Below, piece by piece: positions 12,893 through 32,441 of a stretch of DNA of 64,000 bases (the first letter of the stretch is position 1; each line of letters begins with the position of its first letter). This DNA is from Sphaerotilus sulfidivorans. Lineage in GTDB: Bacteria > Pseudomonadota > Gammaproteobacteria > Burkholderiales > Burkholderiaceae_C. The notes under the pieces are model-generated. The model saw only the letters and a program-made list of their open reading frames with translations, was not told where the DNA came from and made no database searches. The translations under genes were made by a program, and so were the position numbers. Location of the stretch: NCBI RefSeq assembly GCF_013426975.1, contig NZ_JACCPY010000006.1:1-64000 (forward strand). The letters run 5' to 3'.

Positions 12893-14140
12893 TCAGGCCG
12901 GCTGCGCGGCCGTGCGCGCGATCGGGCCCTCGCGCACCGGCAGGTTGGCCAGCGCGGCCAGCAGGCCCAGCGCGATCGAGATCCACCAGACGATGTCGTA
13001 GCTGCCAGTGGCGTCGTAGAGCCGTCCGCCCAGCCACACGCCGAGGAAGGAGCCGATCTGGTGGCTCAGGAAGACGAAGCCGCCCAGCATCGACAGGTAC
13101 TGCACGCCGAAGATCTGCGCGATGACCGCATTGGTCGGCGGCACCGTCGACAGCCACAGCACGCCCATCACCGCCGAGAACAGGTAGACGCTGGCGGGGG
13201 TCAGCGGCGCGGCCAGGAAGAGCGTGATGGTCACCGAGCGCAGCAGGTAGATCGCCGACAGGATGTGGCGCTTGGCCAGGCGCTGGCCCAGCGCGCCCGC
13301 GGCATAGGTGCCGAAGACATTGAACAGGCCGATCAGCGCCAGCGCGGTGGTGGCCACCTCAGGGGCCAGGCCGTGGTCCTTCAGGTAGCTGGGCATGTGC
13401 ACGCCGATGAAGACCACCTGGAAGCCGCAGACGAAGTAGCCGGCCATCAGCCACTGGAAGCTGCGGTAGCCGAAGGCCTCGCGCAGGGCTGCGCCGATGC
13501 TCTGCTGCGCGCGCGCCGCGCCGCCCGCGGCGACCGGCTCGCGCAGGCCGCGCGCCAGCGGCACGATCACCAGCGCCGCACCGCCCAGCAGCATCAGCGC
13601 CTGCTGCCAGCCGAAGGTGGCGATCAGCCACTGCTCGACCGGCACCATCAGGAACTGGCCGAAGGAGCCGGCGGCGGCTGCCACGCCCATCGCCCAGGAG
13701 CGCCGCGCCGGGTCGATCTGGCGGCCGATGATGCCGTAGACCACCGCGTAGGTCGTGCCCGACTGCGCCACGCCGATCAGCAGTCCGGCACTGGCGGTGA
13801 AGGCCGCGCCGGTGGGCGACAGCGCCATCAGCACCAGCCCGAGCGCGTAGAGCAGCGCGCCGCCCGCCAGCACCCGGAAGGCGCCGAAGCGGTCGGCCAG
13901 CATGCCCGCCACCGGCCCGGCCAGGCCCCAGGCCAGGTTCTGCACCGCCATCGCGAAGGCGAAGGTCTCGCGGGTCCAGCCTCGCTCCTGGGTGATCGGA
14001 CCCAGCCACAGGCCGAAGCCGTGGCGGATGCCCATCGACAGCGTCACCACCAGCGCCCCGCACAGCAGGACCTGGTGCATCGACAGTCGGGCGGGCGGGC
14101 CGGACGGGGCGGGCGGCGAGGCGGAGGCTGGGGTGCTCAT
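12893..14140 (-). CDS. MFS transporter, monocarboxylate/oxalate-formate-like
   Basis: A 415-residue major facilitator protein with twelve predicted hydrophobic spans in two bundles separated by a cytoplasmic loop (around LREPVAAGGAARAQQ). The loop 2-3 signature appears as GMLADRFGAFRVL. The overall pattern (RHGFGLWLGPITQERGWTRETFAFA in span 1-2) resembles the oxalate/formate antiporter and monocarboxylate branch, so an organic-acid substrate is likely but unproven. It is first gene of the minus-strand operon ending in bamC. A TACAGT hexamer lies eight bases before the ATG on the minus strand, which would allow a leaderless start. Confidence 0.85.
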   Translation of the reverse strand: MSTPASASPPAPSGPPARLSMHQVLLCGALVVTLSMGIRHGFGLWLGPITQERGWTRETFAFAMAVQNLAWGLAGPVAGMLADRFGAFRVLAGGALLYALGLVLMALSPTGAAFTASAGLLIGVAQSGTTYAVVYGIIGRQIDPARRSWAMGVAAAAGSFGQFLMVPVEQWLIATFGWQQALMLLGGAALVIVPLARGLREPVAAGGAARAQQSIGAALREAFGYRSFQWLMAGYFVCGFQVVFIGVHMPSYLKDHGLAPEVATTALALIGLFNVFGTYAAGALGQRLAKRHILSAIYLLRSVTITLFLAAPLTPASVYLFSAVMGVLWLSTVPPTNAVIAQIFGVQYLSMLGGFVFLSHQIGSFLGVWLGGRLYDATGSYDIVWWISIALGLLAALANLPVREGPIARTAAQPA

Positions 14141-14238
14141 GGCCGGACACTGTAGCGAAATTCACGAACCCCGGCCGTCGCCGCCACGACGGACGCGAAT
14201 GTCGGCTCAGGCGGCCGACCTGCCTACAATCGCCCGCC

Positions 14239-16254
<2,016 letters not shown>

Positions 16255-22691: not shown

Positions 22692-23438
22692 ATGCGACTG
22701 CTGCTTGCCGAAGACGATCAGCTGCTCGGCGACGGTCTGCGTGCCGGCCTGCGGGCCCTGGGCTTCCAGGTCGACTGGGTGCGTGACGGCGTGGCCGCCG
22801 AGCGCGAGCTTCTGAACCAGACCTACACCGCCGCCATTCTCGACCTCGGCCTGCCGCGGGTCGACGGCATCGACGTGTTGCAGAGCCTGCGCAACCGGGG
22901 CGTGGCCACGCCGGTGCTGGTGCTGACCGCGCGCGACGGCGTGCCCCAGCGCATCCAGGCACTGGACATCGGTGCCGACGACTATGTCGTCAAGCCGGTC
23001 GACCTGCATGAGCTGGCTGCGCGGCTGCGTGCGCTGGTGCGCCGCTCGCACGGCCAGGCGCAGGACCGGCTCAGCAGCAACGGCGTCGATCTGCAGCCGG
23101 CCTCGCGCGAGGTCTGGGCCGACGGCGAGGCGGTCAAGCTCTCCAGCCGGGAGTTCAGCCTGCTGCATGTGCTGATGCTGCGCCCGGGCCGGGTGCTGAC
23201 CCGCGAGCAGCTCGAGAACCACCTCTACGGCTGGGGCGAGGAGGTCGGCAGCAACACCATCGAGGTGCATGTGCATCACCTGCGCCGCAAGCTTGGCTCG
23301 CACCGCATCCGCACGGTGCGCGGGGTCGGCTATGCCTTTGCCGCCTCGACGCCGGCGCCGGCGCCCGAGAGCGCACCTGCCGAGGCCGCGGCCGAGCTGG
23401 GCGCCGACACCGGCAGCATGCCGCTTTCCGCCTCGTGA
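22692..23438 (+). CDS. OmpR-family response regulator, QseB/PmrA-like
   Basis: A 248-residue regulator. The receiver domain shows LLLAEDDQLLGDGL, the phospho-acceptor in AILDLGLPRVDG, VLVLTARD and the Lys of YVVKPVDLHEL. The winged-helix domain carries LSSREFSLLHVLMLRPGRVLTREQLE and the recognition helix NTIEVHVHHLRRKLG, ending in IRTVRGVGYAF. The Ala/Pro-rich extension after that is unusual. The stop overlaps the GTG of the kinase gene as GTGA, so the two proteins form one unit. Confidence 0.93.
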   Translation: MRLLLAEDDQLLGDGLRAGLRALGFQVDWVRDGVAAERELLNQTYTAAILDLGLPRVDGIDVLQSLRNRGVATPVLVLTARDGVPQRIQALDIGADDYVVKPVDLHELAARLRALVRRSHGQAQDRLSSNGVDLQPASREVWADGEAVKLSSREFSLLHVLMLRPGRVLTREQLENHLYGWGEEVGSNTIEVHVHHLRRKLGSHRIRTVRGVGYAFAASTPAPAPESAPAEAAAELGADTGSMPLSAS

Positions 23439-24949
23439 GTCCGCTGCATCCGGCGCGGCGCAGCTCGCTGCGCGCGCGGCTGCTCGGCCGGGTGCTGGCT
23501 GGGGTGACGATGCTGTGGATGCTGGCGGCGGTGCTGGCCTGGGTCGACACCCGGCGCGAGCTCGACAGCCTGCTCGACGGTCATCTGGCGCAGTCGGCCG
23601 CGCTGCTGATCGCGCTGCAGCTCGAGGATGGCGGCGAGGCCGCGCTGCCGCCGGCCTCCAATCTGCACCGCTACTCGCCGCGGGTGGCCTTCCAGGTCTG
23701 GCGCGACGGCGCGCTGGAAATGCATTCCTGGAATGCGCCGGCCGAACCGCTGGCGCCGCTGGTGCCGGGCTTTCACGCCACCCATCTGTCGGGACGCGAC
23801 TGGCGGGTCTATGCCGCCCGGCCGCGGCAGGCCTCCGACGCGATCGTGCTGATCGGCGAGCTGGGCTACTCGCGCGAGGAGATTCTCGAGGCGGTGCTGC
23901 GCAGCTCGCTGCTGCCGCTGCTGGTGGCGCTGCCGCTGCTGGGCCTGAGCGTGTGGTGGGCGGTGCGTCTGGGCCTGGTGCCGCTGGACCGGCTCGGGCG
24001 CGAGCTGGCCACGCGCGATCCGGCCGAGCTGACGCCGGTGCGCATCGACGACGCACCGGCCGAGCTGCTGCCGCTGATCCAGGCGCTCAACGAGCTGTTC
24101 GATCGCACCCATGCGCTGCTGAGCTCGGAGCGGCGCTTCACCGCCGATGCCGCGCATGAGCTGCGCACCCCGATCGCCGGCATTCGCGCGCAGGCGCAGG
24201 CCGCGCTGGCGGTGGCCGATCCGGCCGCGCGCCGCCATGCGCTGCAGGCGACGCTGGCCGGCTGCGACCGCGCCACCCGTCTGGTGCAGCAGCTGCTGAC
24301 GCTGGCGCGGCTGGAGGCCGAGCCGCAGTGCCGCCAGGGCCGCGCCGACCTGGTGGCGCTGGCCCGCGACGAGGTGGTCGAGATCGCCGCCACCGCCTTC
24401 GAGGAGGGGCAGGATCTGCAATTCGAGGCGCCGGAAGAGGAGGGCTGGCTGCAGGTGCGCGGTGAGCCCACGCTGCTGGCGGTGCTGCTGCGCAACCTGA
24501 TCGACAACGCGCTGCGCTACAGCCCGGCCGGCGCGACGGTGCGGGTGACCGTGCTGCCCCCGGCACAGGCCGAGACTTCGACGTCGGTGATGCCCGACGG
24601 CACGGAAACGCCCGTGCCCCGCGCCCGGCTGATCGTCGAGGACAGCGGCCCCGGCCTGTCGCCGGAGCATCTGCAGCGCCTGGGCGAGCGCTTCTTCCGC
24701 GCGCTTGGCAATGACCGGCCGGGCAGCGGCCTGGGCTGGTCGATCGTGCGGCGCATCGCGATGGCGCTGCAGCTCGACATCCAGGTCGATCGCTCGCCCG
24801 AGCTTGGCGGGCTGCGGGTCAGCGTGGCGGTGGCGATGGCGCCGCAGGAGCCGGAGCCGGAGTCGACTGCGGCTGCTTCCGTCGCCGCGGCCGATCAGCC
24901 GGCGAGGCCGTCCGGCCCACCGCCGGAGCCGGAGCGCTCGCGCACATAG
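23435..24949 (+). CDS. Sensor histidine kinase, QseC-like
   Basis: A 504-residue inner-membrane kinase. A first span (VLAGVTMLWMLAAVLAWV) precedes a periplasmic domain of about 130 residues, then a second span (LLPLLVALPLLGLSVWWAV). The cytoplasmic part has the phospho-acceptor H-box FTADAAHELRTPIAGI, N-box LIDNALRYSPAG, G1 box VEDSGPGLS and G2 GSGLGWSIVRRI. Domain order matches QseC/TctE kinases, and it should phosphorylate the preceding regulator. The last 55 bases overlap the 3' end of the convergent gene at 24895. Confidence 0.93.
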   Translation: MSPLHPARRSSLRARLLGRVLAGVTMLWMLAAVLAWVDTRRELDSLLDGHLAQSAALLIALQLEDGGEAALPPASNLHRYSPRVAFQVWRDGALEMHSWNAPAEPLAPLVPGFHATHLSGRDWRVYAARPRQASDAIVLIGELGYSREEILEAVLRSSLLPLLVALPLLGLSVWWAVRLGLVPLDRLGRELATRDPAELTPVRIDDAPAELLPLIQALNELFDRTHALLSSERRFTADAAHELRTPIAGIRAQAQAALAVADPAARRHALQATLAGCDRATRLVQQLLTLARLEAEPQCRQGRADLVALARDEVVEIAATAFEEGQDLQFEAPEEEGWLQVRGEPTLLAVLLRNLIDNALRYSPAGATVRVTVLPPAQAETSTSVMPDGTETPVPRARLIVEDSGPGLSPEHLQRLGERFFRALGNDRPGSGLGWSIVRRIAMALQLDIQVDRSPELGGLRVSVAVAMAPQEPEPESTAAASVAAADQPARPSGPPPEPERSRT

Positions 24950-25704
24950 CGGCACAGCGTGCCGCTCTCGGGCAGCAGGTAGATCACCTGAGCCTCCTCG
25001 GCCTCGGTGAGGAGGCCGCCGCCGCTGCCGGTCTGTGCCCAGGCCGGGCGGCGGCGGCGTCCCTGCGGCAGCCGGGCAAAGGCCCGCACCCGGCGCTCCA
25101 GCGAGGCACTGTCCTCGCTGTCGAAGCGCTCCCAGGCCAGATCGACCGGCTCGCCGTCGATCAGGCGCAGCAGTGTCGCGCCTTCGTCGCGCGGCAGCAC
25201 CAGCACCGCGTCGGCATCGCGGATCTGACGGCCGACCCGCTGCCATTCGGCATGCAGCAGCGGCTCGATCCGACCGGCACGCAGGCCGGCGTGCTGAAGC
25301 GTCTCGGTCCAGGTCGCCAGATCGGCCGCCTCGAGCGCGCTGGCGAGCCAGCGCTGCCGGCCCATCGGCAGCAGCATCAGATGCCGCGCTCCGTCGCCGA
25401 GCACCGCCCGGAAGCGCTGCTGCGCCTCCTGCCGGACCTGGGCGTGCGAACCGTCATGGTGCAGCAGCAGGTGCAGCAGGTACTCGTCGGCCACCCGCAG
25501 CCGGGCCTGGCCCGGCAGCACCTCGACATCGGCCAGGCGCAGCGCCGACAGCGCCGCGCCCAGCGCGGCCGCGCCCCGCCCGCTGCCGCTGGCCGCGGCC
25601 AGGCTGCGCTCGCGCCAGCCCGCGCCGATGAGCCGGGCCTGGCAGCCGCGTGCACGCAGGTCGAGCCAGAGTTCAGGGCGCCAGCGGAGCGGCACGCTCG
25701 GCAT
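24895..25704 (-). CDS. Hypothetical protein, possibly PilM/GspL-like (actin-fold)
   Basis: A 269-residue protein with no confident family. The start (PELWLDLRARGCQARLIGAGW) has the look of the first strands of an actin/ASKHA fold. The middle (WTETLQHAGLRAGRIEPLLHAEW, then AVLVLPRDEGATLLRLIDGEPVDLAW) resembles PilM, MshI or the cytoplasmic part of GspL, which bind secretion ATPases. No membrane span is seen, so it would be cytoplasmic. Its start overlaps the end of the GspE-like gene by 32 bases, which supports a functional pair. Its own end overlaps the kinase gene. The PilM/GspL link is inference. Confidence 0.55.
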   Translation of the reverse strand: MPSVPLRWRPELWLDLRARGCQARLIGAGWRERSLAAASGSGRGAAALGAALSALRLADVEVLPGQARLRVADEYLLHLLLHHDGSHAQVRQEAQQRFRAVLGDGARHLMLLPMGRQRWLASALEAADLATWTETLQHAGLRAGRIEPLLHAEWQRVGRQIRDADAVLVLPRDEGATLLRLIDGEPVDLAWERFDSEDSASLERRVRAFARLPQGRRRRPAWAQTGSGGGLLTEAEEAQVIYLLPESGTLCRYVRERSGSGGGPDGLAG

Positions 25705-27190
25705 CCTCCTGTGCGATCTCGCCCGAGCGCAGCCGCTGCTGCAGCCGCTCGGCCATGCCGGGGATGCGCCGCTGTCGGGCCAGCCGGTCGAGCCGGGCCG
25801 CCGGCGCGCCGGTCTCGATCGCCTCGGCCAGCGCGCGGCTGGTGCCGATCCAGCTTTCGATCACGCAGCGGCCCAGCCGGCCGCTGCCCTCGCAGTCCGG
25901 ACAGCCGCTGCCTTCGCAGTGCGGGCAGATCCGCGGCAGCAGCTGCTGCACCAGCATCCCGCCGAGGCTGCGGCCGATCACCTGGCGCGGCAGGCCGGCG
26001 CGGTGCAGCCGCTCGATGGCCGACCAGGGCGAGGCCGCCCGCACCGCCAGCACCAGCGCCCGGCCCTCCAGCGCCAGATCGGCCAGCCGCTCGGCGGCGC
26101 CGGGGCTCATCTCGCCGCTCTGGTCGATCAGCAGCCGGTCGGGATCGCGCCTCAGGCCGTGCTCGACCGCATCGCGGTCCGGCGCGTCCAGCACCAGCGC
26201 GAGCTGGCCTTCCTGACGGCTTTGTCCGGCCAGCGCCCGCAGCAGGGTGCTCAGTCCCTGGCCTGGAGGCGCCACCAGCAGCGTCAGCCCGTGCACCGGC
26301 CGCAGCGCCTGGCGCAGCGCGGCACAGGTGGCCGGCGCCAGCCCCAGCGCCTCGAGCGAGGGGGGCGGCTGCCGATCGTCGCGGTCCGGCAGCCGCAGCA
26401 CGATGTGGCCGGGATGCAGCTCGACCGGCAGGCTCAGCGGCCGGCCGCCCTGGACGATGTCGAGCTGGCCATCGCGAAGGATCTGCGGGCTCAGCATCGC
26501 GGCCAGCGCATGCAGCATCTCGCCGGCCGGGGCGGGGCGCTCGTCGTCCGGATGCGACGGGCCGGCGGGCTGCAGCCGGCCGTCGATGCGCAGCCGCACC
26601 GAGGCGGCGGCCGGGTCATGGGCCGGCAGGTCCAGGTGCAGATGGCTGGCGCCGCGCTCGAACGCCAGGCGCAGCAGCCGGTTGAGCGGCTCCAGCGCCG
26701 GCGTGCCGGCTGCACCGATGTCGTCATGGCGGGAGGCGCGCACGCCGAAGCGGCTGACCTCATGCTCGAGCCGGGCCTGCTCGACCCGCTCGACGAAGGC
26801 CAGCAGCGCCGGTGCCGGTGCCACATACCAGCGGGTGCGCAGCCGTCCCTCCTGGCGCAGACGCGCCTCGATCCAGAGCCGCTCGGCGCGGTCGAAGGGG
26901 TCGGCCAGCACCAGCGCGGTGGCCTGGTCGGGTGTGCGCAGCGCCACGCACAGCCGCCGGCGCGCCTCGCCGGTGGGAATCAGTCGGGTGTCGGCCAGGG
27001 TCGGCTCGGCCCGCTCCATCGCCGCCGGCATCATGCCGCTGGCCAGTGCCAGCCAGCGCCGGAAGGCCGGATCCTGGCTGGAGTCCGGCGCCGGGCCGCG
27101 GGTGTCGGCGCTGTAGCGGCGCATCAGACGCTGCACCACCCGCTCGGCCTGTTCCGCCGCGCCGATGCGGCTCAGCTCATGCTCGCTCAT
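25673..27190 (-). CDS. Degenerate GspE/PilB-like secretion ATPase homologue
   Basis: A 505-residue protein that follows the type II secretion/type IV pilus ATPase plan: GASHLHLD (about residue 181), VRLRIDGRL, a P-loop region at 307-315, RDPD at 348-351, and a four-cysteine zinc motif with Cys422, 425, 430 and 433 (CPHC...CPDC) followed by GRCVIESW. The P-loop reads APPGQGLST, with Leu313 where the catalytic lysine should be. The GEIRD Walker B box is replaced by SGEMS, and the TLHTN histidine box by AVRAAS. It therefore probably does not hydrolyse ATP and may be structural or regulatory. No other secretion or pilus gene lies nearby except the possible PilM/GspL-like partner. Confidence 0.75.
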   Translation of the reverse strand: MSEHELSRIGAAEQAERVVQRLMRRYSADTRGPAPDSSQDPAFRRWLALASGMMPAAMERAEPTLADTRLIPTGEARRRLCVALRTPDQATALVLADPFDRAERLWIEARLRQEGRLRTRWYVAPAPALLAFVERVEQARLEHEVSRFGVRASRHDDIGAAGTPALEPLNRLLRLAFERGASHLHLDLPAHDPAAASVRLRIDGRLQPAGPSHPDDERPAPAGEMLHALAAMLSPQILRDGQLDIVQGGRPLSLPVELHPGHIVLRLPDRDDRQPPPSLEALGLAPATCAALRQALRPVHGLTLLVAPPGQGLSTLLRALAGQSRQEGQLALVLDAPDRDAVEHGLRRDPDRLLIDQSGEMSPGAAERLADLALEGRALVLAVRAASPWSAIERLHRAGLPRQVIGRSLGGMLVQQLLPRICPHCEGSGCPDCEGSGRLGRCVIESWIGTSRALAEAIETGAPAARLDRLARQRRIPGMAERLQQRLRSGEIAQEDAERAAPLAP

Positions 27191-27327
27191 GCGGGAATTG
27201 GACCGTGCCGGCCGCCTTCAGCCAGCCCCCGCGACGCGGGGACAGCGCTCCCTGACAGCAGGGACGAGGGCCGACGGAAAAAGGTCTTCATGCGAAATAC
27301 GCGGCAGTTTCTGCCAAGTATTTCACA

Positions 27328-27816
27328 TCATCGCGCTTGTGCGAGACGGACTGCGGCTGCGCCCAGCAGCACGAACAGCGCCGCGCTCCACAGCTCGAAG
27401 GGCACGCCCAGCAGCGACACCGCGGCCTCGGCGCAGGAGGCGCGCACCTCGAAGACCTCCGGCTGCCAGGCGTCCAGCCCCAGGCCGGAAATGATCCGGT
27501 CGGCCAGCGTCAGGTCGCAGGAGGGCAGCTTCGCGGCGACGAAGTGCTGGTAGAGCGCCGCTGCGGTGCCGGCCAGGGCCAGCAGCAGCACCAGCCCGCC
27601 CGAGAGCCGGCGCGACAGCCGCGTGGCGCCCGCCGCCTCGGGCAGCAGTGCCGCCAGGCCGGCCACCGTGCCGATCAGCAGGAAAAGAATGCGCTGCAGG
27701 ATGCACCACGGGCAGGGCTGCATGTCCAGGCGATGCTGGGCGAACAGCGCGCCGGCGACGCTGGCGAAGCAGGCCAGCGCCATCAGCGCCAGCAGCAGGC
27801 GCGGGCGCGGATTCAC
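27328..27816 (-). CDS. dsbB: Disulfide bond formation protein DsbB
   Basis: A 162-residue inner-membrane oxidase with four hydrophobic helices that reoxidises DsbA and passes electrons to quinone. The first periplasmic loop has the redox pair in QPCPWCILQR. The second loop has the other pair, Cys in KLPSCDLT and Cys in RASCAEA. It starts with GTG at 27816, which overlaps the stop of the RidA gene as GTGA. The 137 bases between it and the ATPase homologue hold no clear terminator. Confidence 0.95.
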   Translation of the reverse strand: MNPRPRLLLALMALACFASVAGALFAQHRLDMQPCPWCILQRILFLLIGTVAGLAALLPEAAGATRLSRRLSGGLVLLLALAGTAAALYQHFVAAKLPSCDLTLADRIISGLGLDAWQPEVFEVRASCAEAAVSLLGVPFELWSAALFVLLGAAAVRLAQAR

Positions 27817-28271
27817 TCGACCTCGGCGATCAGCTCGATCTCGACGCAGGCGCCCAGCGGGATCTGCGCGACGCCGAAGGCGCTGCGGGCATGCGCGCCG
27901 ACCTGGTCGCCGAAGACCTGGGCGAACAGCTCGGAGGCGCCGTTGGTGACCAGGTGCTGCTCGGTGAAGTCGGGCGTGCTGTTGACCAGGCTCATCACCT
28001 TGACGATGCGGCGCACCTTCGACAGGTCGCCGACGGCGGCCTGCAGCGTGCCCATCAGGTCGATGGCGATGGCGCGGGCGGCTTCGCGGCCGGTGGCGGT
28101 GTCCATGTCGCGGCCGAGCTGGCCGACCCAGGGCTTGCCGTCCTTCTTGGCGATGTGGCCGGACAGGAAGACCAGGTTGCCGGTGCGCACGAAGGGCACA
28201 TAGGCGGCGGCCGGCACGGCCACCGGCGGCAGGCTGATGCCGAGGTCCTGGAGGCGCTGGGAAATGCTCAT
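27813..28271 (-). CDS. RidA family protein (YjgF/YER057c/UK114)
   Basis: A 152-residue protein of the RidA superfamily, whose best-studied members hydrolyse reactive enamine/imine intermediates. It is the longer subtype beginning LGISLPPVAVPAAAYVPFVRTGNLVFLSG. Strands GNLVFLSGHI and GACVEIELIAEVE frame the fold, and the conserved Arg near the end of RidA is not obvious here, so catalytic activity is uncertain. ATG 28271 was chosen because upstream codons are low-complexity shadow. Coupled to dsbB by a GTGA overlap, and divergent from comEC. Confidence 0.85.
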   Translation of the reverse strand: MSISQRLQDLGISLPPVAVPAAAYVPFVRTGNLVFLSGHIAKKDGKPWVGQLGRDMDTATGREAARAIAIDLMGTLQAAVGDLSKVRRIVKVMSLVNSTPDFTEQHLVTNGASELFAQVFGDQVGAHARSAFGVAQIPLGACVEIELIAEVE

Positions 28272-28411
28272 GGCGGGAATCCGTGAATCGGTTCGGTTCG
28301 GGAAGGAATTTTTCGTTTCCGGAGCGATGCGTGCTGGCGCTGTCAAGCGCGGATCACCCGTGCACCGCCCGGCTGGGCGCGATCCTACACTGAGCCGAAA
28401 GGGGAGGACGC

Positions 28412-30967
28412 ATGGGCGCCAGCCTGCACGGGGTCTCGGCCGTGATGCCGCTGGGCGTGGCGGCCGGCGCGGTGCTGGCGGGCACGCTGCTGCAGATCCA
28501 GCAGCCACGCCTGCTGGCGTCGCCCGAGCGCCAGATGCTGCTGGGTGCCGCGCTGCTGCTGCTCCTGCTGGCGTGGATCGGGCCGCGGGCAGGGCGCGGG
28601 CGCAGCCGCTGGCCGCGGATTCTCGGTGCCCTCGCGCTGGCACCTGCCGCGCTGCTGCTGACCGATCTGCGCGCCGAGGCCGGCCTGCGCGACCGGCTCG
28701 ATCCGGCGCTGCAGGACCGGCTGGTGCAGGTCGAGGGCGTGATCGTCGGCCTGCCGGTCTGGCGCGAGGGCGCCTGGCGTGGCCAGATCGAGGTGGAGCG
28801 TGCCGGCTGGCCCGGCACCTTGAGCGGCGCACGCGTGGCGGATGCGCCCGCGCCGGTGCCGCTGGTCCTGCCGCGCCGGCTGCAGGTCTTCTGGGGCGAA
28901 AGCGGCTTGTCCGGACCGCCGCCTCGGGCCGGGGCGCCACGCGCCGGCCAGCGCTGGCGATTGGCGCTGAGGCTGCGGCCGGTCGAGGCGCCGGCACCGC
29001 TGCACGGGCCGGACCTGGCGCTGCGTGCGCTCGAGGAGGGCCTGGGCGGCCAGGGCCGGGTGGTGCAGCGCAGCGGCGTCGCTGACGACCGGCCGGTGCT
29101 GCTGGCCGAGACCGGCCAGGCACGCATCGACCGCTGGCGCCAGGATCGGCGCGAGCATCTGTTCTCGGTGCTGGGCGAGCGGCCGGCGGCCGGGGTGATC
29201 GCCGGCCTGAGCCTGGGTGACCAGAGCGCGATCGAGCGCGAGGACTGGGCGCTGTTCCGCCTGGCCGGCCTGAGTCATCTGATGGCGATCAGCGGCCTGC
29301 ATGTGACGATGTTCGCCTGGCTGGCCGGCGTGCTGATCGCGCTGCTGTGGCGGCGCGGGCCCGGGCCCGGGCTGATGCTGATCTGTCCGGCGCCGCGTGC
29401 GGCCCGTCTGGGCGGGGTGCTGGCGGCGCTGGGCTACGCGCTGCTGTCGGGCTGGGGCGTGCCGGCGCAGCGCACCGTGCTGATGCTGGCCACGGTGGCG
29501 CTGCTGCGCGAGGGCGCGCGCGACTGGCCGATGCCGCGCCTGCTGGCGCTGGTGGCGGCGGTGGTGGCGCTGGCCGATCCCTGGGCCTTGCTGCAGCCGG
29601 GCTTCTGGCTGTCCTTTGTCGCGGTGGCGCTGCTGATCGCCTCGGAGCCGCCCGGCGCACGGATGCGCACGAGACCGGCGCAGCGGCCGGGAGCGGCGTG
29701 GCTGCGCGAGTCGCTGCGCGCCTTGCTGCGCAGCCAGTGGGTGGCCACGCTCGGCCTGGCGCCGTGGACCTTGCTGTTCTTCCAGCAGATCTCGCTGCTT
29801 GGGCTGCCGGCCAATCTGGTGGCGATTCCGCTGATCACGCTGGTGGTGACGCCGCTGGCGCTGCTGGGCCTGCTGCTCGAGCCGCTGTGGCTGCCGGCGG
29901 TCTGGGCGATCGACCTGCTGCGCCTGATGCTGGAGCCGCTGCTGGCCTGGCCGGGCGCGGCCTGGAGTCCGGCGGCGGCGCCAGTCTGGGCCCAGGCGCT
30001 GGGTCTGGCCGCGGCGGTGCTGCTGACGCTGCCCTGGCCCTGGGCGCTGCGTCTGCTGGCGGTGCCGATGCTGCTGCCCCTGCTGTGGCCGGCGCTGGAG
30101 CGGCCGCAGCCCGGGCATTTCGAGCTGATCGTGCCCGATGTCGGCCAGGGCCATGCGGTGCTGGTGCGCACCGCAGGCCACGATCTGCTGCACGACACCG
30201 GACCGGCCTACGGCCGCCAGGGCGAGGCCGGCGACGCCGGCGAGCGGGTGCTGCTGCCGCTGCTGCGCCGCCTGGGCGTGCGCGAGCTTGACCATCTGGT
30301 GCTGAGCCACCGCGACAGCGACCACAGCGGCGGCGCCGCCTCGCTGCTGGCGGCGCTGCCGGTGCGGCTGATGCACAGCTCGCTCGAGCCCGGCCATGCG
30401 CTGCGCGGCCGCCCCGCCGGCAGGGCAGCGGCCGGCGTGCCGCACCAGCCTTGCCAGGCCGGCCTGCGCTGGCAGCGCGACGGCGTCGAGTTCGAGTTCC
30501 TGCATCCGACGGCTGCAGCCCTGGCCCGCACCGGGCCGGATCGGCCCGGCTCGAATGCGCTGTCCTGCGTGCTGCGGGTGGCCGGTGGCGGCCGGGTCGC
30601 GCTGCTGACCGGCGACATCGGCCAGGAGCAGGAGCTGATGCTGGTGCTGCGCCAGTCAGGGCGCCTGCGGGCCGATGTGATGCAGGTGCCGCACCACGGA
30701 AGTGCATCTTCATCGAGCTTGCAATTTGTCAATTCGGTGACTCCGGGCTGGGCTATCGTGCAGGCTGGGAGGTTCAATCCGCACGGTCATCCGGCGGTGG
30801 CGGTCGTGCAGCGTCTGCAATCACGCGGTACGAAAGTGATTCATGTGAACCGCTGTGGTGCATGGCACTGGTACGGTGCGAATGCATCGGAGTGGTGCGA
30901 ACAGGACGAACGCATCCGTTACTGGCATCAGCCGCTTCCGGGGACGACAGGCCGTGACTGGCCCTGA
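28412..30967 (+). CDS. comEC: DNA internalisation competence protein ComEC/Rec2
   Basis: An 851-residue inner-membrane channel for single-stranded DNA during natural transformation. An N-terminal hydrophobic and OB-like region leads into the Competence domain (GVIAGLSLGDQSAI, LSHLMAISGLHV), with many membrane spans. The C-terminal metallo-beta-lactamase domain has DVGQGHAVLV, the metal motif LSHRDSDHSGG and VPHHGS. A strong ribosome site (GGGGAGGA, 28401-28408) sits four bases before ATG 28412. The gene is full length and in frame, so uptake capacity is plausible if other com/pil genes exist elsewhere. Confidence 0.95.
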   Translation: MGASLHGVSAVMPLGVAAGAVLAGTLLQIQQPRLLASPERQMLLGAALLLLLLAWIGPRAGRGRSRWPRILGALALAPAALLLTDLRAEAGLRDRLDPALQDRLVQVEGVIVGLPVWREGAWRGQIEVERAGWPGTLSGARVADAPAPVPLVLPRRLQVFWGESGLSGPPPRAGAPRAGQRWRLALRLRPVEAPAPLHGPDLALRALEEGLGGQGRVVQRSGVADDRPVLLAETGQARIDRWRQDRREHLFSVLGERPAAGVIAGLSLGDQSAIEREDWALFRLAGLSHLMAISGLHVTMFAWLAGVLIALLWRRGPGPGLMLICPAPRAARLGGVLAALGYALLSGWGVPAQRTVLMLATVALLREGARDWPMPRLLALVAAVVALADPWALLQPGFWLSFVAVALLIASEPPGARMRTRPAQRPGAAWLRESLRALLRSQWVATLGLAPWTLLFFQQISLLGLPANLVAIPLITLVVTPLALLGLLLEPLWLPAVWAIDLLRLMLEPLLAWPGAAWSPAAAPVWAQALGLAAAVLLTLPWPWALRLLAVPMLLPLLWPALERPQPGHFELIVPDVGQGHAVLVRTAGHDLLHDTGPAYGRQGEAGDAGERVLLPLLRRLGVRELDHLVLSHRDSDHSGGAASLLAALPVRLMHSSLEPGHALRGRPAGRAAAGVPHQPCQAGLRWQRDGVEFEFLHPTAAALARTGPDRPGSNALSCVLRVAGGGRVALLTGDIGQEQELMLVLRQSGRLRADVMQVPHHGSASSSSLQFVNSVTPGWAIVQAGRFNPHGHPAVAVVQRLQSRGTKVIHVNRCGAWHWYGANASEWCEQDERIRYWHQPLPGTTGRDWP

Positions 30968-31010: not shown

Positions 31011-32441
31011 ATGATGTTCGATGAAATGAATGCGAGCGGTCCGGTCGTCCGGGACCACTACCGTACCTATGAGCGCTGGCTGCAGCAGCAGCCCGGGGAG
31101 GTCATGCAGGCCCGCCGGGAGGAGGCGGAAATGATCTTCCGCCGCGTCGGCATCACCTTCGCCGTCTATGGCGACAAGGATTCCGGCGAAGGCACCGAGC
31201 GGCTGATTCCCTTCGACCTGATTCCGCGGGTGATTCCCGCCCACGAGTGGCGCGAGCTGGAAGCCGGCCTGCGCCAGCGGGTCACCGCGCTGAACCGCTT
31301 CGTGCATGACGTCTACCACGGCCAGGAGATCGTCAAGGCCGGCATCGTGCCGCCGGAGCAGATCCTGGCCAACGCGCAGTACCGGCCCGAGATGATCGGC
31401 GTGGACGTGCCTGGCGGCATCTACTCGCACATCGCCGGCATCGACATCGTCCGCGCGGCCAACCCCGACGGCTCGGGCACCTACTACGTGCTGGAGGACA
31501 ACCTGCGCGTGCCCTCGGGCGTGAGCTACATGCTCGAGAACCGCAAGATGATGATGCGGCTCTTTCCCGAGCTGTTCGCGCAGCACCGCGTGGCCCCGGT
31601 CGCGCACTATCCCGACCTGCTGCTGGAGACGCTGCGCTCGGTGGCGCCGGGCGGCATCAACGACCCGACGGTGGTGGTGCTGACGCCGGGCATGTACAAC
31701 TCGGCCTACTTCGAGCACGCCTTCCTGGCGCAGCAGATGGGTGTCGAGCTGGTCGAGGGCCAGGATCTGTTCGTCAAGGACAACTTCGTCTTCATGCGCA
31801 CCACGCGCGGGCCGAAGCGCGTCGACGTGATCTACCGCCGCCTCGACGACGACTTCCTCGATCCGCTGGCCTTCCGCCCGGACTCGACGCTGGGCTGCCC
31901 CGGCCTGCTGGCGGCCTACCGCGCCGGCAACGTGACGCTGTCGAACGCCATCGGCACCGGTGTCGCCGACGACAAGTCGATCTACGCCTATGTGCCGAAG
32001 ATGATCGAGTTCTACCTCGGCGAGAAGCCGATCCTGAACAACGTGCCGACCTACCTGTGCCGCGAGGCCGACGACTTCCGCTATGTGCTCGACCACCTGT
32101 CCGAGCTGGTCGTCAAGGAGGTGCACGGTGCCGGCGGCTACGGCATGCTGGTCGGCCCGGCCGCGAGCAAGGACGAGATCGCCAGGTTCCGCGAGCACCT
32201 GATCGCCAACCCCGGCAACTACATCGCGCAGCCGACGCTGAGCCTGTCGACCTGCCCGACCTTCGTGGAGAAGGGCATCGCGCCGCGCCACATCGACCTG
32301 CGCCCCTTCGTGCTGTCGGGCCGCAGCGAGGTGCAGATGGTCTGCGGCGGCCTGACCCGGGTGGCGCTGAAGGAGGGCTCGCTGGTGGTCAATTCCTCGC
32401 AGGGCGGTGGCACCAAGGACACCTGGGTGCTCGAGGACTGA
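31011..32441 (+). CDS. Circularly permuted type 2 ATP-grasp protein
   Basis: A 476-residue protein of the CP-ATP-grasp family (DUF404/DUF407), predicted to ligate a carboxylate to an amine with ATP. Conserved blocks: ERLIPFDLIPRVIPAHEW, the segment YVLEDNLRVPSGVSYMLENR that is diagnostic for the family, VVVLTPGMYNSAYFEHAFLA, VDVIYRRLDDDFLDPL and the C-terminal nucleotide-site region VVKEVHGAGGYGM, then SSQGGGTKDTWVLED. It is the first gene of a cluster with alpha-E and transglutaminase-like proteins, known from comparative genomics as a predicted peptide-modification system. The biochemical product is unknown. Confidence 0.92.
   Translation: MMFDEMNASGPVVRDHYRTYERWLQQQPGEVMQARREEAEMIFRRVGITFAVYGDKDSGEGTERLIPFDLIPRVIPAHEWRELEAGLRQRVTALNRFVHDVYHGQEIVKAGIVPPEQILANAQYRPEMIGVDVPGGIYSHIAGIDIVRAANPDGSGTYYVLEDNLRVPSGVSYMLENRKMMMRLFPELFAQHRVAPVAHYPDLLLETLRSVAPGGINDPTVVVLTPGMYNSAYFEHAFLAQQMGVELVEGQDLFVKDNFVFMRTTRGPKRVDVIYRRLDDDFLDPLAFRPDSTLGCPGLLAAYRAGNVTLSNAIGTGVADDKSIYAYVPKMIEFYLGEKPILNNVPTYLCREADDFRYVLDHLSELVVKEVHGAGGYGMLVGPAASKDEIARFREHLIANPGNYIAQPTLSLSTCPTFVEKGIAPRHIDLRPFVLSGRSEVQMVCGGLTRVALKEGSLVVNSSQGGGTKDTWVLED

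Follow-up and report, generated by a model that had tools for sequence, protein, structure and literature searches.

An apparent GspE/PilB-type pseudo-ATPase and its overlapping partner gene, retained in Sphaerotilus from a type II secretion-like operon

GspE/EpsE (PDB 4pht, 1p9r), the ATPase of type II secretion systems (T2SSs), and the adaptor proteins PilM and cytoplasmic GspL (cyto-GspL; 5eox, 2ych, 1yf5) are the closest described counterparts of two overlapping genes, here called P1 and P2, in a 64,000-nucleotide stretch of the Sphaerotilus sulfidivorans genome (contig NZ_JACCPY010000006.1, positions 1 to 64,000; hereafter the window). The N-terminal domain of GspE is the part of the motor that binds cyto-GspL. 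PDB entry 4pht is titled as a complex of these two proteins, and the Asp box, the catalytic Glu and the His box are described, in the passages of PMC10191384 that deal with these motifs, as highly conserved in GspE/PilB ATPases. A further point of comparison is PilB of Myxococcus xanthus: according to PMC5544727, its Walker A lysine mutant K327A has no ATPase activity and supports exopolysaccharide production in a pilin-less strain, more than the wild type does, and signalling is proposed to come from the apo form.

Comparison with related genomes shows that the window lineage keeps the ATPase gene and P2 of a T2SS-like operon that is still present in three congeners, and that selection continues to act on both genes. 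From this we infer, with a probability of roughly 0.6, that P1 and P2 would form a pseudo-ATPase/adaptor complex that has been retained and serves as a scaffold or in signalling.

P1 and P2 compared with GspE and PilM/GspL

P1 (505 residues; 25673..27190, minus strand) matches the Pfam family T2SSE (PF00437) at 4.8e-20 and 72 bits, with a cut-off of 24.9, and in the PDB it matches PilF and GspE/EpsE chains by sequence. It reaches the GspE and PilB models of NCBIfam far under their equivalog cut-offs (70.6 bits for the GspE model TIGR02533, where 630.25 are required), and the intact orthologue of P1 in the congener G009 is likewise under that cut-off, at 475.7 bits. The AlphaFold2 model of P1 is of moderate overall confidence (predicted local distance difference test, pLDDT, 80.0; predicted template modelling score, pTM, 0.51), and its top Foldseek match is the GspE chain of 4pht (4pht_C, 7.9e-24).

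P1 shares with GspE/EpsE the fold and the tetracysteine zinc motif, of which both pairs, CPHC and CPDC, are retained (residues 422-433; 25892..25927, minus strand), but differs from them in that the Walker A lysine and the Asp, GE(I/M)RD and His boxes are missing. In the sequence alignment the Walker A position reads APPGQGLST where GPTGSGKTT is expected (residues 307-315; 26246..26272, minus strand), which does not fit GxxGxGK[ST] and puts Leu313 in the place of the lysine; VLDAPD-- stands for TIEDPVEY in the Asp box, RLLIDQSGE for RIMVGEMRD in the GE(I/M)RD box and AVRAAS for TVHANN in the His box. The initial annotation, made from the letters of the window alone, had recognised this protein correctly by its retained cysteines and by all of these losses except that of the Asp box, and P1 is apparently a motor of the GspE/PilB family that can no longer burn ATP.

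The N-terminal domain of P1 (residues 1-140, with a boundary that we set; 26771..27190, minus strand) is presumably, by homology, the adaptor-binding region of GspE. We also considered reception of cyclic di-GMP through an MshEN domain at residues 62-142 and rejected it, the Pfam match being sub-threshold (19.3 bits, cut-off 23.1) and no canonical MshEN motif being visible by eye.

P2 (24895..25695, minus strand) lies directly after the ATPase gene, as the genes of PilM and cyto-GspL do. Its frame is open from an ATG at 25704 (24895-25704), which gives the 269 residues first assigned to it; the likelier start is the GTG at 25695, giving 266 residues, because, among 18 adjacent P1/P2 pairs that we compared, 17 accommodate a GTG 23 nt inside P1 (overlap 25673..25695, minus strand), the exception being G168, with an 11-nt overlap and a TTG start. 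A search with profile hidden Markov models, proposed at the outset for both proteins, placed P1 but not P2: P2 alone matches nothing in Pfam or NCBIfam, nor any PDB entry by sequence, and none of the 13 members of its family matches a PilM/GspL family in Pfam. The fold proposed at the same time for P2 is borne out by its AlphaFold2 model, which was built from nine sequences (pLDDT 80.3, pTM 0.75) and shows an actin-like fold like that of PilM and cyto-GspL over nearly the whole protein. Foldseek ranks PilM first for this model (5eox_B, 4.4e-12) and also lists cyto-EpsL and the GspL chains of 4pht. VIA gives its top place to BT_3980, an actin-like protein whose function is unknown (Z 14.4), followed by PilM (2ych_A, Z 14.1 over 224 residues), FtsA (Z 13.4) and cyto-EpsL (1yf5, Z 11.2 over 191 residues); BT_3980 and FtsA are thus tied with PilM, and the fold by itself does not single out PilM. 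The predicted fold is PilM/GspL/FtsA-like, and our choice of PilM/GspL follows from the Foldseek rank together with the gene context. Unlike PilM and cyto-GspL, P2 has no profile match, no membrane segment in its sequence or predicted model, and no PilN-like partner, for which no match was found in the window genome.

An intact operon at the same site in three congeners

Our comparison rests on 13 genomes of the Sphaerotilus/Leptothrix genus, that of the window included, which we refer to as congeners. P2 is present in all 13, and in each it is adjoined by an orthologue of P1. In a sample of the family P2 was found in 13 of 399 genomes, one of the 13 being a marginal match, and by these searches the pair, whose conservation across Burkholderiales had been put as a question, is a genus-level feature.

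The site lies between the genes for DsbB and a histidine kinase. In G009 (probably L. cholodnii SP-6), S. mobilis DSM 10617 (G007) and L. discophora CCM 2812 (G002), the DsbB-kinase gap exceeds that of the window by about 8 kb and is filled by an operon. In G009 (locus L046) this operon comprises a transglycosylase, GspG, GspF, GspE, P2, a PilN-like protein, a GspM-like protein, one unassigned protein, a secretin and pseudopilins. We ran Pfam and NCBIfam on ten of these genes and call the operon T2SS-like because its GspG passes the T2SS equivalog cut-off (172.9 bits, cut-off 88.85) while its E, F and D proteins all remain under theirs. In the same run PilN was matched weakly, one protein proved to be of the GspM type and one a pseudopilin, another had no Pfam match, and the P2 of G009 matched no relevant Pfam or NCBIfam family. 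The lytic transglycosylase that opens the operon lies at 7040-7795 of L046 and the secretin, which carries tetratricopeptide repeats, at 13828-15816; by eye, more pseudopilin-like frames follow downstream in the gene calls for G009 and G007. With its E, F and D under the cut-offs, the G009-type operon may represent an unnamed T2SS-like class. Among the titles and abstract openings of the open-access literature matches listed, we found neither an operon of this kind nor a GspE/PilB pseudoenzyme. The full-operon species (L. discophora, S. mobilis and G009; L046, L047 and L048) are manganese and iron oxidisers. G009 also has a second, more diverged operon (L054; G009:C1:4352140-4359376) with platform, ATPase, N-, M- and secretin-like matches.

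That G007 and G002 carry the same operon is inferred from the platform, secretin, N-like and M-like matches at the site. Secretin matches of at least 60% identity and near full length occur in G009, G007, G002 and G004, in the last of these elsewhere, on contig C121; further secretins at 40-49% lie elsewhere in the same four genomes, and the best match in each of the other nine congeners is at 26-31%. Platform proteins of 61% or more are again present in these four genomes, and every other match listed is at 37% or less. A PilN-like gene is present in six of the 13 congeners (G009, G007, G002, G012, G011 and, at C121 only, G004) and adjoins P2 at the site in five, and an M-like gene is present in five (G009, G007, G002, G011 and, again at C121 only, G004). 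The site thus holds the full operon with an intact P1 orthologue in three congeners, the ATPase gene (E), P2 and the PilN-like gene in G012 and G011, with the M-like gene also in G011, and E and P2 only in eight, the window among them. Two of these eight assemblies are incomplete (G005 at 83% and G006 at 68%), with the site covered in both.

G004 has, besides the degenerate pair at the ancestral site, a full operon with an intact GspE at L049 (G004:C121:5000-24500). Its neighbours there look by eye like glycogen metabolism genes, and its P2 is about 31% identical to the copy at the site. For G004, a metagenome bin, contamination is estimated at 3%, and the C121 operon may be foreign or a binning contaminant.

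The operon of L. discophora, S. mobilis and G009 has in common with the window orthologous P1 and P2 genes, in the ATPase-then-adaptor order, the 23-nt overlap and the flanks; it differs in that its E carries all motifs and lies amid secretin, platform, PilN-like and GspM-like genes. A secretin and a platform protein in the same locus, as a T2SS would have, find no match on the contig of the window, whereas the intact operon has both and GspG as well. The absence of secretion genes near the pair, noted from the window, extends to its whole 186-kb contig (C111) for what we searched: the only T2SSE-family matches are the two pieces of P1 itself, and the secretin, platform, PilN-like and GspM-like proteins of the G009 operon have no match there, in contrast to the setting of GspE/EpsE. 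The origin from a secretion motor that the initial annotation had proposed stands, and can be put more exactly as the residue of a T2SS-like operon that is intact in three congeners.

Within this one genus there is a graded series, which has at one end a secretion ATPase of functional appearance, set in its operon, and at the other an apparently ATPase-dead protein alone with its adaptor. Among the 14 congeneric loci (the 13 site copies and the second copy of G004), all ATPase motifs are intact in G009, G007, G002 and the second copy of G004; four genomes from other genera likewise keep them all. In G012 the Walker A position reads GPPGSGKTS, and the Asp box and GELRD are present, with the His box absent; G011 has lost the lysine (GPRGSGSSS) and kept the Asp and His boxes; G003, G008, G004 and G005 keep the lysine, with the Asp, GEIRD and His boxes gone; the place of the lysine is taken by Arg in Leptothrix sp. 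C29 (G001) and G006, and by Leu in S. natans ATCC 13338 (G010) and the window. A lysine loss common to the lineage is not what these loci show, since nine of the 14 keep the lysine and five do not (Leu, Leu, Arg, Arg and Ser). If the tree is right, the lysine was lost at least twice, in G011 separately. The four zinc cysteines are kept in 14 of 14.

Trees of rpoB and of P1 give the same order, with the full-operon species followed by G011/G012, next by G003, and finally by both the trio of G008, G004 and G005 and the S. natans group; the deep supports of the rpoB tree are weak (48, 67 and 68). The P2 tree differs in placing G011/G012 with the full-operon species, with a support of 93, so that the trees allow more than one count of operon losses. 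The rpoB tree omits G005 and G006 (no rpoB match) and G362 (a match in two pieces); the identity, motif and omega sets omit G368/L079, in which P1 is cut at a contig end, G023/L053 and the second copy of G009 (L054); and G003 is in the trees but left out of the omega sets. Conserved synteny and the P1 tree, where the copies at the site cluster together and separately from those of other genera with a support of 99, rule out that the pair arrived horizontally as a ready-made orphan. In the full-operon trio P1 is 89-96% identical and P2 72-87%; in the trio that has the pair only (G008, G004, G005) this order is flipped, with P1 at 69-76% and P2 at 81-85%. In the S. natans group, with a near-identical pair excluded, P1 is at 52-62% and P2 at 62-71%. 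The intact GspE of G009 shares 69-72% identity with its counterpart in another genus (g115) but 31% with the P1 of the window.

Selection on P1 and P2

We estimated the ratio of nonsynonymous to synonymous change (dN/dS, omega) by codon likelihood (GY94/F3x4), on frames that included both the 55 nt shared by P2 and the kinase gene and the 23 nt shared by P1 and P2. Between the window and S. natans, omega is 0.056 for P1 (dS 0.27; likelihood-ratio test statistic against an omega of 1, 120.6) and 0.11 for P2 (statistic 31.0). Within P1 it is about 0.001 in the N-terminal domain, with a dN of 0 over 140 codons, and 0.084 in the C-terminal domain. Of seven neighbouring genes fitted, five (ParC, the kinase, the response regulator, RidA and the gene at 31011-32441) lie at 0.025-0.061, ComEC at 0.165 and DsbB at 0.292. 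The codon comparisons show that P1 and P2 are both under purifying selection, and with omega so far below 1 simple decay is rejected.

These tests replace the argument from long intact frames by which decay had at first been discounted: the conclusion holds, but P1 has a G+C content of about 76%, at which long open frames are cheap and argue only weakly against decay (a 641-residue antisense frame covers P1). Intact P-loops in close relatives, which had been proposed as a pointer to local decay, do occur among the congeners, yet the omega values of both genes speak against such decay. We also simulated neutral drift at 70% G+C. For P1, 0.135 changes per site leave a mean of 2.44 stops and 7.6% of runs intact, 0.27 changes per site a mean of 4.05 stops and 2.4% intact, and 1.2 changes per site a mean of 8.58 stops and none of 500 runs intact; for P2 the frame stays intact in 19.2%, 9.2% and 1.2% of runs at the same three levels. 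All 14 congeneric P1 frames and all 14 P2 frames used are open.

The distribution of constraint within P1 differs between lineages. In the full-operon trio the C-terminal domain is the more constrained (omega 0.033 vs 0.103 for the N-terminal domain, p=0.00064), whereas in the pair-only trio the N-terminal domain is (0.042 vs 0.139, p=0.00014), as it is in the S. natans group (0.108 vs 0.219, p=0.01). The omega of the C-terminal domain is higher in both pair-only sets than in the full-operon species (p=9e-8 and 1.1e-7), and in the pair-only trio the N-terminal domain is tightened relative to them (p=0.019) and the omega of P2 is lower (0.053 vs 0.159, p=1.2e-5). On these codon data, the strongest constraint within P1 has moved from the motor domain to the N-terminal domain. 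Such a measurable swap makes it a testable question whether motors of this kind take on a second job without their machine.

What the pair might do, and its flanking genes

P1 and P2 would, on our preferred explanation, be the cytoplasmic core, composed of the motor and a PilM/GspL-like adaptor, that has outlasted a dismantled T2SS-like machine of the type-4-filament kind. The N-terminal domain of P1 and P2 would form a stable complex, much as GspE N1 and GspL do; we propose this because selection falls chiefly on that domain and on P2, and on the zinc site as well, with limited drift in the motor part. The dead, zinc-bearing C-terminal domain would stay folded and nucleotide-free, and the complex would act on another target in the cell envelope as a scaffold or signalling element, not as a motor. 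If so, the window holds a minimal natural pair of the GspE/PilM type that can be studied apart from a membrane machine.

A number of observations sit uneasily with this explanation. In the S. natans group the omega of the N-terminal domain (0.108) is about that of the full-operon species (0.103, p=0.87), and the omega of P2 (0.218) is not lower than theirs (0.159, p=0.15). With dS totals of 1.3-2.9 in the two wider pair-only sets the absolute omega values there are rough, and the boundary between the two domains was chosen after the N-terminal domain had been seen to be better conserved. Constraint on the C-terminal domain is clearly relaxed, and P1 might be slowly losing it. The four congeners G008, G004, G005 and G003 keep the Walker A lysine though the Asp box is gone, which leaves room for nucleotide binding there. 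The flanking genes are common to the full-operon species and single out no target gene, and the P2 of G003 ends about eight codons short of its profile match.

Three other explanations have to be set against these data. That P1 and P2 are a dying remnant whose frames are still open by chance would account for the loss of the remaining operon genes and of the catalytic motifs, for the existence of intact relatives and for P1 and P2 evolving faster, as proteins, than neighbouring genes; the open frame of P2 is also weak evidence, given how often drift preserves it at 0.135 and 0.27 changes per site. We nevertheless regard plain decay as very improbable, as in the closest pair both genes have omega values far under 1 and the N-terminal domain of P1 a dN of 0, drift rarely leaves P1 intact and every congeneric locus keeps both frames open and all four cysteines. 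P2 could instead be the functional unit, with P1 kept only as a stabilising partner or chaperone through its N-terminal domain. The low omega of P2 in the pair-only trio fits this, and in another genus G088 has a solitary P2 homologue (L080, 6242-7018), the 17 kb read at this locus containing no GspE, a possible sign that P2 is the part that endures. Yet the N-terminal domain of P1 is about as constrained as P2, P1 is kept at full length with its zinc site, and a solitary P2 occurs in just one of four genomes of the G088 genus, and we find this account doubtful.

P1 might also join the hexamers that the intact GspE, PilB or TfpB-like motors of the cell form, as an inhibitory or tuning subunit, or titrate the PilM/GspL adaptors of these motors. 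The window genome does encode separate GspE, PilB, TfpB-like (just under the cut-off) and PilT-type ATPases with intact motifs, besides a T2SSE match (L004) that our motif filter did not pick up and two on contig C74, and zinc-site mutants of EpsE are reported to be dominant negative over the wild type (PMC5061722). P1 has, however, no more than about 30% identity with the TfpB-like ATPase of the same genome (contig C75), in pair-only lineages its C-terminal motor domain is less constrained than its N-terminal domain, and P2 adjoins P1 in every congener; we judge such a role unlikely.

The retained-complex explanation can be taken one speculative step further, by analogy, to a secretion motor turned signalling protein, in which P1, locked in a nucleotide-free state, would together with P2 control or report to exopolysaccharide, sheath or other envelope assembly in Sphaerotilus after the loss of the machine. 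Sphaerotilus makes a sheath, which makes a link to an envelope polymer the natural guess, although in this specific form we think the idea improbable. The K327A mutant of M. xanthus PilB, so far as the account cited above describes it, resembles P1 as a motor of the GspE/PilB type that lacks the Walker A lysine and signals without a filament; in contrast to P1, it is a laboratory mutant of a working motor with pilus genes, while P1 is natural, fixed and without a machine, and signalling by P1 is putative.

Two syntenic markers outside the module, identified by Pfam and synteny, border the pair: DsbB (27328..27816, minus strand), upstream of P1, and the histidine kinase (23435..24949, plus strand), which overlaps the 3' end of P2 on the other side. 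A promoter and terminator scan of 24700-28500 found none. The order at the site is ParC, response regulator, kinase, then P2 and P1, then DsbB, RidA and ComEC. DsbB and RidA on one side and the kinase and response regulator on the other are present at ten of the 13 site loci; at the G003 site no kinase was found, and DsbB, RidA, ComEC and ParC are kept, and at the G012 and G011 sites ParC is the sole marker kept within the 19.5 kb fetched.

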